Positions 1 through 64,000 of a DNA stretch of 64,000 nucleotides are shown in pieces; positions within the stretch are counted from its first letter, which is position 1, and every line of letters starts with the position of its first letter. The position numbers and the translations under genes are program-made. Source of the DNA: Tetradesmus obliquus (Eukaryota; Chlorophyta; Chlorophyceae; Sphaeropleales; Scenedesmaceae); NCBI GenBank assembly GCA_030272155.1, contig CP126201.1:868001-932000 (forward strand), read 5' to 3'. The notes beneath the pieces are model-generated. The model made no database searches, was not told the DNA's origin, and saw nothing but the letters and a program-made list of their open reading frames with translations.

Positions 1-60
1 CATCAATCAGTGCTGGATCCGCCTGCTCTCCCTCCCTCAACCCCCAAACCCTTATCGCTA
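1..60 (-). repeat. Degenerate copy of eIF4G exon 17 3' segment
   Basis: The first ~45 bases repeat the stretch at about 133-180 inside exon 17 (catcaatcagtgc.ggatccgcc) with mismatches, then pass into the TAAAACCC-type intron sequence. It lies in the intron downstream of exon 17 and has no usable donor, so it is a pseudo-exon. Confidence 0.6.
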
Positions 61-3000
61 ACACCTAAAACCCCAGCAGCTCACCTTGATTGCGTTCGCA
101 GCTACCAGCAGCATCGGGGCCGCCTTTTCCGCATCAATCAGTGCCGGATCCGCCTCCTCTCCTTCCTCCCCAGCAGCATCCTCAGCACCAGCCTCTTTCA
201 CCGCCTTAGCCAAATCAGCGAGGCTCAAGGGTACCAGCCCAGTAGCAATGAAGTGCCCGGCCATCTCTGCTGCCAGCAGGGGAGCCTTAGGCACGTCCTC
301 AACTAGGTCAGGCAGTACGCCTACTAGTGCAGTGAGTGCTGTGGCCATGTCGGCGGGTGTGATGAGGGGAGATGGCTCGCCTTCTGCTGATGGCGCCCGC
401 AGCTGCGCCTCGAGGAATGGCTGCAACAGAAACAAGTGTGCAGCAGCAGCAGCAGCAGCAGCAGCAGCAAAAACAGGGGGAATTTGTGAGTGCTGTGGCC
501 ATGTCCGCGGGAATTCATGAGCAGCGCCACATCAACATCATCAGCCCAGGCAGGCCCCTCACGTCCAGCCCCTCCTTAAAGCGCCACCAGCGCCATCAGC
601 GCCATCAGCAGCGATTACACTCGAAATGGCAGTCATAACACCAAAAATAACACAAATAACACAGATAATAGTCGCACCTGCAGCCCCGCCAGGCGCTGCT
701 CCACAGGCAGGCCGCGTACATCGAGCCCCTCCTTGAGCAGCGACACCAGCGCCATCAGCAGCACCGGGAATAATGATAACAGTCATAACACCAAAAATAA
801 CACAATATAACAAACGCACCTGCAGCCCCGCCAGGCGTTGCTCTACAGGCAGGCCGCGCACATCAAGACCCTCCTTGAGCAGCGCCACCAGCGCCACAGG
901 CGGGCAGCGCGCCAGCCCCAGCAGCTGCTCCAGCACCACCAGGTCATCCTCCTCAGCTTGGCGCACCTACAGCAGCAGTTTGACCAATGTTTGATCAATG
1001 TTGACCAGTGTTTGACCACGAAGTGACAGCAGGGGGGAGAGAGGAGAAGCAGACACAACAGGCCCAGCAGCTGCTCCAGCACCACCAGGTCATCCTCCTC
1101 CGCTTGGCGCACCTGCAGCAGCAGCAGTTTGACCAATGTTTGACCAGTGTTTGACTAGGTTTGACCAGGCGGTGACAGCAGGTGACGAAAAGTACAGCAG
1201 AGAAAACAGGCCCAGCAGCTGCTCCAGCACAACCAGGTCTTTGATCGTCATCTGTAAAGGGCAAAAAAGTCACAGGCGAAGCCATCTGCTGCGATGAGGA
1301 TTCGAACCACGTACCTTGAGCAGCACGCCGGCCAGCTCTGCAGCCTTGCCCTTGAGCTGCCCCTCATAGTCCTTAGCAGCAGCCACAATGTCAGCAAGGC
1401 TCATCTCGCCGTCCGCTGCTGCTGCTGCTGCACCGGCAGCAGCAGCAGCGCCAGGAGGCAGCGGCGGCCGGCCGCCAGCAGCAGCAGCAGCTGCGTCACC
1501 GCCAGATCCAGAAGGATCTGACACACGCGCCTCGCCGCGTGTGGGCAGCGGCGGCTGCCGCTGCTGCTGCTGCTGGTCGCTGGAGTCAGTCAGCCGGCTG
1601 GGGCGGCTGGCGCCACCTGCTGCTGCTGCTGCTCCTGCACCTGCTCCTGCTGAGCCACGCATAGGGCTCATGCGGTTGCCAAACCCTTGCGGCCTGCAAG
1701 TGAATGAGTGTGATAGCAGATGCAGGCAGCCGCCGGACCAAACAAGCACACACAGGTGTTAGGAACGGACTTTTCGTCGTCATTTGGCTGCATGTGATGC
1801 AGCATGGCAGCGGCACAAGCAGAAGCGTGCACCAGCCAGAACTCTTGTTGCTGCATTGCATGCTGCGCACTACCACTGCAGACTATGAAGCAACAACGGT
1901 GCAACTGAAGCTGCCTTGTGGCTGCTGCCAGTGCACCGATGCAGGCGGCCTCATATGGGCATGGGACAACACACATGAATGACTTATACTATACAACACT
2001 TTAAACATGGCCCTTTCATATCAGAAGCTGAGCCCTTCGCTGCTGTTGGTGGCACAGGGAGGCGCTGTAGCCCGCGAATGGCGCATACAGACCAGAAAAT
2101 AACACATAAATAACACAACAACAACGCACCTGAAGCTGAGCTCCTCGCTGGCGGTGCGGTGGCCCAGGCTAGACCTAATAGGCTGCAACGGCACGCAGCG
2201 ACCAACAATAACACATATGTAACACATAAATAACACAATAACAACGCACCTGAAGCTGAGCTCCTCGCTCGCGGTGCGGTGGCCTAGGCACACAGCGACC
2301 AACAATAACACATATGTAACACATAAACAGCACAATAACAACGCACCTGAAGCTGAGCTCCTCGCTGGCGGTGCGGTGGCCCAGGCTAGACCTGATAGGC
2401 TGCCCCAGCATCTCATCACGCCGCAACAGCCCTGGGCCGCTGGGGCGCCCGCCATCTGCGCAACACGAACAAAGCAGCGTATTATGAAACACAGACCAGC
2501 GTGGTCAGCCTAGCATGTGCATGTAGCGTGTTTGAGACAGTGAGCATGCCGCAGCAGCCCGGGGCCGCTCGGGCGGCCGCCATCTGCGCAAAAGGCACAA
2601 CACAACAGCATTGTTAGCCTGTCATGTTCATGTGGTATGTGCATACCGCAGGGTGCGCCCACCGCCCATGCGGTACACCACCCAAACCACAACGAGCATG
2701 TGATGTGACAAACATGAAGCATGCAGCGTATACCAACAGCTTTGATCCCTTACCTGGTGGGCCGCCGCCGTAGCCGCCGGGCGGTCCCCTGTCGCGCCCA
2801 CCACCCATGCGGTCCGGCGGCCCGCCGCGCCCGCCGCGCTCGTCGCGCCGCGCCACGTTGGCCGCCTCGCGCTGCGCCTCGCGGTGCACGTCCTGCGGCA
2901 GCAGCAGCAGCAGTGATTTGAGTTGCACAGTCATCAGCTGGAGGAGCTGCGCAACAATTGCAGCACAGCACCCAGCCAGCCCAAGAGGACGTAGCAGCGC

Positions 3001-62616: not shown

Positions 62617-64000
62617 ATGGGACGCCGCTCACGTCCAAGGTGGGCGGTGCTACTGCTGCTTGCAGCAGCTGCTGCTGTGACAGCCCAGGGCGCTAGTTAC
62701 CCGCCGTTGGATGGCACCAGCAACAACAAAGCCAACCCAACATGGGGGTGAGTTCATTCGGCTTTCAGCATGCGCAGTAGGACAACCACAGCCAGAACTA
62801 GCTGCCCTAGCTGTTACTTGGTGCTTTGCTGCAGCAGTGCTGGCCTTGCCAAACACCAGCTGTCTGCATACGCACACACTACACAGCATCAGGACATTGC
62901 TAACAGCTCATCAAAAGATCTCAACATTTGGACACTGCACAGCAGCAAGGTCCTGCCCATCTCTGTGCTCTGCAGCCAACCCAGCCACGCCTGTCCATGC
63001 ATGACCAGCTGCAGATCCACACCTCCCACTGCCATTGTCTGCAGCATGGTCCATGAACACCCAATCAGATATGACTCACGTAACATGTTATTTGTGTTAT
63101 TTTGTCCTGCAGGGCTGCACGCACGCCGTACCTCAGGCAGCAGGTTCCGCAGGAGGCTTTCGGCCCCACAGGCAGCGCCATGGCGGTGAGTGGGCATGAA
63201 TAGTTCTTAAGGTTCATTGGTTTTATACGATCCAGAAGCTATTATGCTGTGGGCTGCCCCACAGGCAGCGCCATGGCGGTGAGTGGGCTGCACAACCTGT
63301 GAACTATCTTGAAAGAAATATATCACATGATTAGAGGGATTCAAAAGTTTCATAAGATCCCTAAGCTGTCATGCTGTGCGCTGCCCCACAGGCAGTGCCA
63401 TGGCGGTGAGTAGCATGTATGAATCATCACACATGATTCAAAAGTGATAGCCACAAAGTGTGCTGGAGATGCCTGCAGCTGCCGGCATACAGCCTTGCAG
63501 GCACTGCTGCAGCTGTCGCCAGCGCTGCAGCAGCTATTGCAGCAACTACTGCAGCCAGCGCTGCAGCAGCTGTCGGCAGCTCTGCAGCAGCAGCTGCAGC
63601 CAGCGCTGCGCCATGCACAGCAGAGCGGCAAGAGAGCGGCTGTCCTGCATGCTGTGCGCTGCACACTGTTTGCATGCCGTGCCCCAGCACTTGTCACATG
63701 CTGCACCTTGCACAGCCTGCCTTGCGATTTGCACCTGATCTATGCGACTCAAGAGGCTTCACTGAGGTTGCATGTGTATATTTGGGACGTTTTCTCTCCT
63801 TGCAGAATGCCAACCGCCCCTCTACGCGGGCAGTGAGCCTGGCACTGACCAACAGTCCTTACTTCAAGGCGGCAAGCAGCACACACCCAAACCTGACACT
63901 GCACCTGCTGTGCATGCTTTGTTTGTGTGCGTCAGGCGCCCACCGGCCGTCTGCGCGGGCAGTGAGCCTAGCGCTCACCAACAGTCCTTACTTCAAGGCG
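62617..64000 (+). CDS. Animal-type haem peroxidase (peroxinectin-like), 5' end only
   Basis: Start MGRRSRPRW followed by a hydrophobic core (AVLLLLAAAAAVTA) indicates a secreted protein; an upstream in-frame ATG at 62356 would bury this signal, so 62617 is preferred. Exons 62617-62747 and 63113-63185 join in phase: YPPLDGTSNNKANPTWG then AARTPYLRQQVPQEAFGPTG. The NN...P.WG..RTP.LR pattern is the N-terminal signature of animal-type (cyclooxygenase-like) peroxidases. The next exon (RPS.RAVSLALTNSPYFKA) is present twice, at 63806-63868 and 63939-64000; the first lacks a nearby donor, so the second, running off the window, is the better candidate. Haem-binding residues lie beyond the window. Confidence 0.75.
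63250..63410 (+). repeat. Two copies of the peroxidase exon 2 end
   Basis: The segment cccacaggcagygccatggcg|gtgagt from the end of exon 2 (63165-63191) recurs at 63262-63285 and 63386-63410, each with 80-100 bp of the following intron. Confidence 0.85.
63806..63868 (+). repeat. Duplicate of the peroxidase exon 3 start
   Basis: Encodes ANRPSTRAVSLALTNSPYFK after a TTGCAG acceptor. The same codons recur after a GTCAG acceptor at about 63939. One of the two is redundant. Confidence 0.75.

Follow-up and report, generated by a model that had tools for sequence, protein, structure and literature searches.

Why do the introns of a green alga carry head-to-tail copies of the edges of their neighbouring exons, and what becomes of those copies? 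The question is raised by a stretch of 64,000 nucleotides from Tetradesmus obliquus (assembly GCA_030272155.1, contig CP126201.1, positions 868,001 to 932,000 of the forward strand), which is called the window in this work and is numbered from its first letter. A preliminary description of the window had reported local tandem duplication of exon edges together with the adjoining intron, over a range of ages, and this was borne out by our analysis. We are highly confident that these exon-edge duplications exist and that they occur genome-wide. The explanation that we favour, with slightly better than even confidence, is that duplications spanning one exon-intron border recur, that their copies are skipped by splicing, and that the copies are partly preserved, either by exchange with the working exons or by some other use.

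Local repeats in the window

The window was masked for repeats and compared with itself using BLAST, and alignments of at least 40 bp were counted. Units of up to 15 bp were masked beforehand, so short-unit repeats are excluded by design. At distances below 1 kb, the comparison gave 101 direct and no inverted pairs, and three Markov shuffles of the window gave no pairs. The longer-range pairs in the window are one direct pair at 1-3 kb, which belongs to a reverse-transcriptase element, and four inverted pairs further apart. The merged pairs form 44 blocks that cover 17,276 bp (27% of the window), which agrees with the more than 40 blocks counted in the preliminary description. The near-identical example given there (30721-31224) is a pair of 252-bp copies that hardly differ, and the third copy behind it has diverged further. 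The claim that every gene carries such copies was too strong, since the regions 24.8-28.9, 34.5-43, and 45.5-50.9 kb have only two blocks together. Three of the 44 blocks lie more than 400 bp away from any predicted exon of at least 45 bp, and some blocks are ordinary minisatellites (for example 36191-36304). No tRNA and no Rfam family were found in the window.

The gene models were produced by a self-trained gene finder (donor CAG/GTGAGT and acceptor TGCAG/G, with the slash marking the border), which recovers the exons of the D1-protease gene described below. Exon-edge arrays mislead gene callers, as had been expected from the sequence: the self-trained finder called many of the copies exons.

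Distribution over the genome

The genome assembly that was searched consists of 17 contigs (104.66 Mb). A sample of 20 stretches of 10 kb was taken at hand-chosen round positions on contigs 1-7 (197.5 kb without N), and the guanine-cytosine content is 53-61% in the sample stretches without N. The sample contains 42 blocks and one local inverted pair. At least one block is present in 16 of the 20 stretches and none in the other four, and the blocks are spread less evenly than would be expected by chance (dispersion 2.5, p 0.0003). The density is 6.9 blocks per 10 kb in the window versus 2.1 in the sample, where two of the 20 stretches match the density of the window. Blocks are 3.5 times denser at 400 bp or less from a predicted exon (80 in 207 kb) than elsewhere (6 in 55 kb; p 0.0008). 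The sample count includes a minisatellite with a short unit of about 28 bp (L018:4947-5139), which does not represent exon-edge copies. The sample also holds a 2.5-kb tandem block (L027:1-2523) with units of about 160-180 bp and without predicted exons, which is unlike the exon-edge arrays and is possibly a satellite.

As an independent test, protein profiles were searched against the whole genome, with the loci counted according to our own grouping of the rows of matches. Overlapping partial exon matches were identified by profile in 11 of 33 conserved gene loci. The Cpn60/TCP1 chaperonin family has them in 6 of 11 loci, and DNA repeats confirm five of these; the CCT locus C4 has overlapping profile ranges but no DNA repeat, and without it the total is 10. 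Partial exon copies were found by profile in two of nine multi-exon HSP70 loci, both confirmed by DNA, and in two of the four actin-family loci with at least four matches, by profile alone. The peptidase S41 family has partial copies in one of five loci by profile and in four of five by DNA. None is clear by profile in the four multi-match loci of ATP synthase, where locus C5 has an overlap of about 20 positions. The partial copies in these profile rows lie on the same strand as the gene. The preliminary description had named confinement of the copies to this window as the outcome that would speak against it. The search did not find such confinement: blocks occur in the sample and in conserved genes on other contigs.

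Falsely tandem haplotypes or other assembly errors could also create such arrays, and false allele duplications are known from assemblies. However, the 3-5 copies per array exceed two haplotypes, neighbouring copies mostly differ by several to 30%, the assembly has 17 contigs for 104.7 Mb, and similar arrays stand in conserved genes on several contigs. An assembly artefact is considered very improbable. A mobile introner-like intronic element that carries exon edges would likewise place copies in introns at splice sites, as is seen here. However, two arrays (HSP70 C13 and CCT C16) that were searched genome-wide at E 0.001 matched only their own locus among the best candidates, which are the ones the tool scores, and the window has no direct pair more than 1 kb apart except the reverse-transcriptase element. 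On the evidence of the two arrays searched and of the window, we regard such an element as extremely improbable. A paralogue as the donor of copies with a silent bias is likewise not supported for the HSP70 C13 and CCT C16 copies, which match their own locus only.

Anatomy of the duplicated units

The offsets between adjacent copies were collected from the window and the sample (n = 111). There are 68 offsets at 100-159 bp and a second group of 16 at 220-259 bp, and 110 of the 111 are at least 60 bp. The unit size of about 85-250 bp that was first described is supported, with 99 offsets at 80-259 bp. The 111 pairs belong to 86 blocks and comprise 27 donor-side pairs, 23 acceptor-side pairs, 13 pairs with both sites, 13 exon-internal pairs, and 35 pairs that overlap no predicted exon. 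According to the alignments as read and the gene finder, a donor or an acceptor site is present in most of the units overlapping a predicted exon.

One unit per block (85 of the 86 blocks) was compared with random segments of the same length outside the blocks. Among the 80 units near an exon, 63 span a junction versus 31% of the random segments, and the counts with a looser margin are 68 of 80 versus 34%. Exon-only units (6 of 80, 26% expected) and intron-only units (11 of 80, 43% expected) are both depleted. Pairs that are at least 92% alike comprise 15 border, 3 intron-only, and 1 exon-only pairs (odds 9.4, p 3e-5). As a control, duplications with neutral copies and a divergence of up to 0.15 per branch were put into 12 of the 20 sample stretches in three rounds; 142 of them spanned a border and 141 lay in introns only. 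The pipeline detected 142 of 142 border-spanning and 131 of 141 intron-only duplications and classed 134 of 142 and 127 of 131 correctly, respectively. The border bias is not due to detection because the two kinds of simulated duplications were found almost equally well.

The simplest alternative is that the copies are plain neutral decoys. Random tandem duplications would occur everywhere, be purged within exons, and be silent and persist across borders, and the exon parts would appear preserved through the constraint on the working exon. This alternative accounts for the head-to-tail order, the truncation of the copies, and the growth of the introns, and it fits the depletion of exon-only units. 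It does not fit the excess of border units over intron-only units, which occurs although the two are detected almost equally well.

The truncation of copies on the side away from the splice site they keep, which had been noted from the sequence, is true but needs no special cause, as it follows from the geometry of a duplication across one border. The full exon is first in a donor-side array and last in an acceptor-side array because the duplication crosses one border. Triplet tracts as the seat of the mechanism, which had been suggested, are not supported. At least four CTG/CAG units lie within 60 bp in 23 of 85 blocks versus 942 of 2445 random segments, and tracts are thus not commoner at blocks than at random segments. 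Slippage at such tracts was rejected on this count. Triplet tracts make up 2.9% of the non-exonic bases in blocks versus 1.6% elsewhere, and tracts inside a unit multiply with it. Junction microhomology was also set aside, as clean junctions are too few.

A further alternative is that the copies are used. Alternative splicing would include the copies or their sites, and selection would keep them coding. The over-representation of border units agrees with this, and so does the array 58342-59041, which was called with both sites. However, both sites per copy are found in only 13 of the 111 pairs, some of which are perhaps miscalled, and, of the 63 pairs whose unit contains a predicted site, 50 have one site only. 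The offsets modulo 3 are 42:33:36 and do not exhibit a bias towards multiples of three (p 0.57), which is also unfavourable to used copies and speaks against in-frame read-through of the copies.

Exon part and intron part of the copies

Of the 111 pairs, 56 align over less than 85% of their offset, and the median identity is 88%. The intron-side flanks of the half-aligned pairs are 64.4% alike (n = 56) versus 60.7% in a mismatched control (p 1e-4). The exon-side flanks beyond the break are 60.5% alike (n = 42), which is at the control level without excess. In the 21 donor-side or acceptor-side pairs with both parts aligned, divergence is 0.10 in the exon and 0.19 in the intron, and the exon value is lower in 17 pairs. 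From these comparisons, the pairs appear to have arisen by genuine tandem duplication, with faster decay in the intron parts. Copy-and-paste of exon fragments, which had been suggested by the pairs that align over little more than the exon, was rejected, as the intron-side flanks are weakly homologous and the exon-side flanks are not, and homology of the intron is visible at 59552-59876.

Skipping of the copies

The fate of one copy can be followed in a protein structure. In a peptidase S41 gene on contig 3, four exons could be aligned to the chains 1fc6 and 1fc7, over 61, 40, 51, and 62 residues. We take these chains to be the photosystem II D1 protease of Scenedesmus (Tetradesmus) obliquus. 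Against the best chain, the sole differences are at the first residues of two queries, which the tool reads as M. The intron 1639-1910 of this gene (locus L008) contains an 86%-alike copy of the start of the next exon, with its own AG, at 1816-1866. In the solved protein, residues 196-246 correspond to exon 1484-1639, residue 247 to the split codon, and residues 248-287 to exon 1910-2031, and the residues of the decoy are absent. The D1-protease copy is skipped in the solved product.

The kinase gene of the window has a similar arrangement. The kinase profile positions 6-74, 105-135, 143-193, and 194-257 are each found once in the working exons, positions 75-104 are unmatched, and the copy at 32849-32917 repeats positions 171-193. 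The chaperonin and HSP70 domains would likewise have room for one copy only. These domains and the missing D1-protease copy are unfavourable to the use of copies. We take skipping to be general, with protein-level proof in one gene, the D1 protease. The copies may, as the preliminary description suggested, supply raw material for new exons; the array 58342-59041 is called with both splice sites, but the D1-protease copy is skipped.

Copied acceptors score below working ones (mean 5.0 versus 6.7; 12 of 30 are equal or better), which is again unfavourable to used copies, and copied donors score nearly as working ones (4.6 versus 5.3; 24 of 34 are equal or better). Of the 44 copies aligned over at least 10 bp on both sides, 41 retain the splice dinucleotide (expected 0.84, p 0.06), which is in favour of used copies.

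Coding constraint on the copies

Replacement (N) and silent (S) changes were counted in 47 arrays with 94 copies from the window and the sample, with a working exon of at least 75 bp. The parent-copy differences are N212 and S311, which correspond to a ratio of replacement to silent rates (omega) of 0.24. The changes unique to a copy are N90 and S79 (omega 0.41), and those unique to the working exon are N6 and S22 (omega about 0.10). The copies are thus less constrained than the working exon (N:S 90:79 versus 6:22, p 0.002), as would be expected of neutral decoys. With one pair per block (53 blocks), omega is 0.27 with a block bootstrap range of 0.20-0.35. Donor-side copies have an omega of 0.14 (N35 S92), which agrees with used copies, and the other classes have 0.28 (acceptor-side), 0.26 (both sites, three blocks), and 0.56 (exon-internal).

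A neutral copy beside a constrained working exon accumulates replacements on one branch and silent changes on two, which gives an omega of about 0.5. The simulated neutral copies described above gave, through the same pipeline, parent-copy changes of 650:371 (omega 0.59) and unique-to-copy changes of 311:106 (omega 0.98). The simulated parent-unique changes were 15:45 despite parents without any replacement change, which represents the noise floor of the pipeline, and the real 6:22 lies at that floor. The real counts differ from the simulated ones with p 5e-18 (parent-copy) and p 8e-7 (unique-to-copy). The copy-specific omega of 0.41 lies between the simulated neutral value of 0.98 and that of the working exon. 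The copies as a group are relaxed compared with the working exon, yet they are constrained compared with neutral sequence, and amino-acid change in them proceeds at about 40% of the neutral rate. These simulations speak against plain neutral decoys, which we consider rather unlikely.

The silent excess holds in transversions alone (N110 S125, p 8e-11). A CpG or transition bias was rejected as its source, since the excess persists in transversions; non-CpG transversions are N76 and S72. The copied exon has 24 frame-shifting gaps in 5850 columns versus 63 in 3300 columns of copied intron, and the copies contain three stop codons in 1190 copied codons. The rarity of stops is in favour of used copies, and the frame-shifting gaps are against them. 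Taking this together with the anatomy and the splicing evidence, we consider the use of the copies through alternative splicing unlikely. The counts for the chaperonin and HSP70 genes (parent-copy N32 S99, copy-copy N36 S48) were not relied on, as those copies were found through protein similarity and are biased.

Proposed explanation

Under the explanation that we favour, stretches mostly of 100-160 bp, with some of about 245 bp, have been duplicated across a single exon-intron border, head to tail, repeatedly and genome-wide. The extra copies typically have one splice site and a truncated piece of exon, and they lie next to the working exon on its strand. The spliceosome skips the copy in the D1 protease and would skip the others too, so that the protein stays unchanged and the intron becomes longer. 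Pieces with a single site may not be recognisable as exons and may thus be ignored and tolerated, which would make duplication nearly free at a border. The arrays would shrink, grow, and swap sequence with the working exon edges through unequal crossing-over and gene conversion. The exchange would also occur between homologous chromosomes, so that most copies would once have served as a working exon. We propose that the copies are partly preserved because much of the divergence would have accrued during service as a working exon. Gene conversion confined to a single chromosome was rejected as the only process by argument: at least one copy of a pair would be off duty at any time, so that the parent-copy omega could not fall below about 0.5.

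Several points weigh against this explanation. By arithmetic, the exchange would require a silent-site difference of about 20% between working alleles, a very high value, and it leaves the preference for borders over plain introns unexplained. The copies look neutral in 7 of the 33 arrays with at least six changes, which neutral decoys would predict, and the copied exon does contain the 24 frame-shifting gaps. The Fisher and binomial p values assume independent sites. The homology of the intron flanks is weak, with just 7% above the 95th percentile of the control. The solved D1 protease is one product, beside which minor isoforms may exist, its copy has four replacement and three silent changes by reading, and it is the only known protein against which the gene models were checked.

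A further reading is that the introns keep silent exon edges under coding constraint as a genome-wide reserve, from which the working exon would find partners for sequence exchange or alternative splicing. Selection would then favour duplication at borders instead of only tolerating it. We consider this doubtful.

Comparison with known systems

A tandem duplication across an intron-exon border has been described in the potato RNA-dependent RNA polymerase (RdRp) gene, where one such event gave rise to a new spliced intron (PMC4974935). The units described here are similar in that they cross the border and copy the acceptor and the exon start. Unlike that single case, there are dozens in the window, on donor and acceptor sides, often in multiple copies, and apparently skipped.

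Tandem or mutually exclusive exons comprise the entire exon with its two splice sites, both in use. They are similar to the present arrays in their local exonic duplication, diverged introns, and conserved exons, whereas the copies described here are mostly truncated, with a single site. Hellsten et al. reportedly described in 2011 the gain of introns by duplication of an exon segment that bears AGGT. Both that process and the present one are tandem duplications silenced at the mRNA level by splicing. However, the AGGT-bearing unit lies within an exon and creates a new intron, whereas an existing intron lengthens here. The model of intron gain by AGGT-segment duplication is named in the potato study (PMC4974935).

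In Chlamydomonas and Volvox, tandem repeats crowd the ends of introns, and the units surveyed were 1-50 bp (Zhao et al., 2013; PMC3887541). Those repeats also belong to green algae and are concentrated near exon-intron junctions. Units that bear exons are unmentioned in the available text of that survey, whereas the units here are mostly 100-250 bp with exon edges. Direct repeats of 4-30 bp at intron borders, which are of a different scale, have been reported by Rogers and Bendich (PMC11782384).

No genome-scale occurrence of partial-exon tandem copies was found reported at the level of top-ranked titles and abstracts, with subscription papers mostly outside this scope. The pattern is also unmentioned in the available portions of papers on Haematococcus, microalgal splicing, and Raphidocelis.

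The mean intron length has been given as 462 bp in T. obliquus versus 230-302 bp in four other green algae (PMC5966456). Exon-edge duplication could contribute to these long introns. In the arrays, numerous near-identical splice sites compete and seemingly only the outermost ones are used, which makes the arrays a natural test bed for splice-site choice. It is unexpected that exon pieces apparently not in use are preserved in a coding-like manner.

Arrays of the window

The arrays at the start of the window lie on the minus strand. The donor-side exon-edge copies of an eIF4G-like gene (547-896) are followed by acceptor-side copies (913-1239), donor-side copies with a 97-bp unit by Tandem Repeats Finder (2100-2403), and an acceptor-side copy (2417-2600). 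The donor-side array 3100-3460 consists of three copies of a MIF4G exon end with a 131-bp unit, and exon 3364-3540 is assumed to represent the working copy. It is followed by an acceptor-side copy (3498-3772), an array of about four copies of the exon end ...KGKAGMSQQQ with its donor (3835-4713), and a donor-side copy (6122-6335). In the acceptor-side array 6350-6776, the beginning of the MIF4G exon 6265-6426 is present in three copies. A donor-side array of three copies (6925-7406) and an acceptor-side array (8454-8868) were also identified on this strand. The eIF4G-like gene also has a 2.9-kb predicted exon (9437-12337) that encodes low-complexity protein rich in Ala, Pro, and Gln and contains impure triplet arrays.

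In the array 3100-3460, the intron of the third copy starts with GTGGGCTCC versus GTAGGTTTT in the first two, while the exon parts are nearly alike. The copies of this array are joined by a telomere-like stretch. Telomere-like motifs of the type GGGT(2-4)A(1-2)GGG are present at 3196, 3327, 6432, 6465, 6639, and 53839. There are seven such motifs in 264 kb, and six of the seven lie in duplication blocks, yet these represent just three independent blocks. Five of the six in-block sites lie 40 bp or less from a predicted exon edge. The motifs were set aside as an explanation, since the in-block sites fall in three independent blocks only. The same short tandem motif TGGTCAAA(C/G) is found in introns of two genes (978-1169 and 17455-18151), in the coding-strand sense of each gene.

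The arrays between 17372 and 33333 lie on the plus strand. They comprise a donor-side array of five copies with a 162-bp unit (17372-18145), an acceptor-side array of about three copies by reading, for which the pair analysis has no predicted exon (18254-18644), an acceptor-side pair with 1 bp between the copies (21750-21995), and, by reading, an acceptor-side array of about four copies with CTG tracts (22510-22885). A donor-side copy lies 246 bp from the end of its parent exon (23142-23471), and an acceptor-side array has three copies (23805-24168). The kinase gene contains a donor-side array of three copies of the end of exon 30243-30841 with a 252-bp unit (30720-31383). Its acceptor-side arrays consist of four copies of the start of exon 31893-32072, of which the last is taken as working (31517-31964), and three copies of the start of exon 32536-32688 with a 135-bp unit (32227-32615). 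The end of the latter exon has a donor-side copy at 32846-32925 (block 32614-32925), where the kinase profile positions 171-193 are found twice, and an acceptor-side pair precedes the last kinase exon (33106-33333).

The remaining arrays lie on the minus strand. A donor-side copy without a predicted exon (43594-43743) and an acceptor-side copy (43820-44048) were assigned by reading. An acceptor-side array of four to five copies of ARTSLTMKHGT... with CTG tracts (53064-53587) is followed by a donor-side copy of DFKATFGRMAQ (53722-53897) and by repeated segments with CTG tracts and no predicted exon (55018-55581). The donor-side copy of a U-box exon end (56361-56662) has four silent changes and one replacement change. 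A donor-side copy (57086-57260) and an acceptor-side array of four to five copies of VLGLLQADVAMRQ (57439-58214) precede the array 58342-59041. This array consists of five copies of ACQLKRLMDQSRVDADKTQEMLTQ with a 147-bp unit, and the gene finder assigned both sites to four of them, each called as a 72-bp exon, and included the first in an exon of 102 bp. It is followed by a donor-side array of three copies (59195-59541) and by an acceptor-side copy (59552-59876), whose exon part is 96% alike and whose intron part is homologous by eye but far more diverged. A small exon-edge copy (60153-60319) and a donor-side array of three copies of AFLMETEEEADMS...QAAFS (60396-60868) complete the arrays.

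Other features of the window

An open stretch at 39881-41752 contains a reverse-transcriptase domain (RVT_1, E 1.4e-19). A 120-bp direct repeat (39894-40013 and 41900-42019; 90% alike, 2,006 bp apart) overlaps the start of this stretch and follows its end. A Peritrophin-A chitin-binding domain (CBM_14, E 5.6e-5) is present in an open stretch on the minus strand at 42503-43126, where the gene finder chose the opposite strand.

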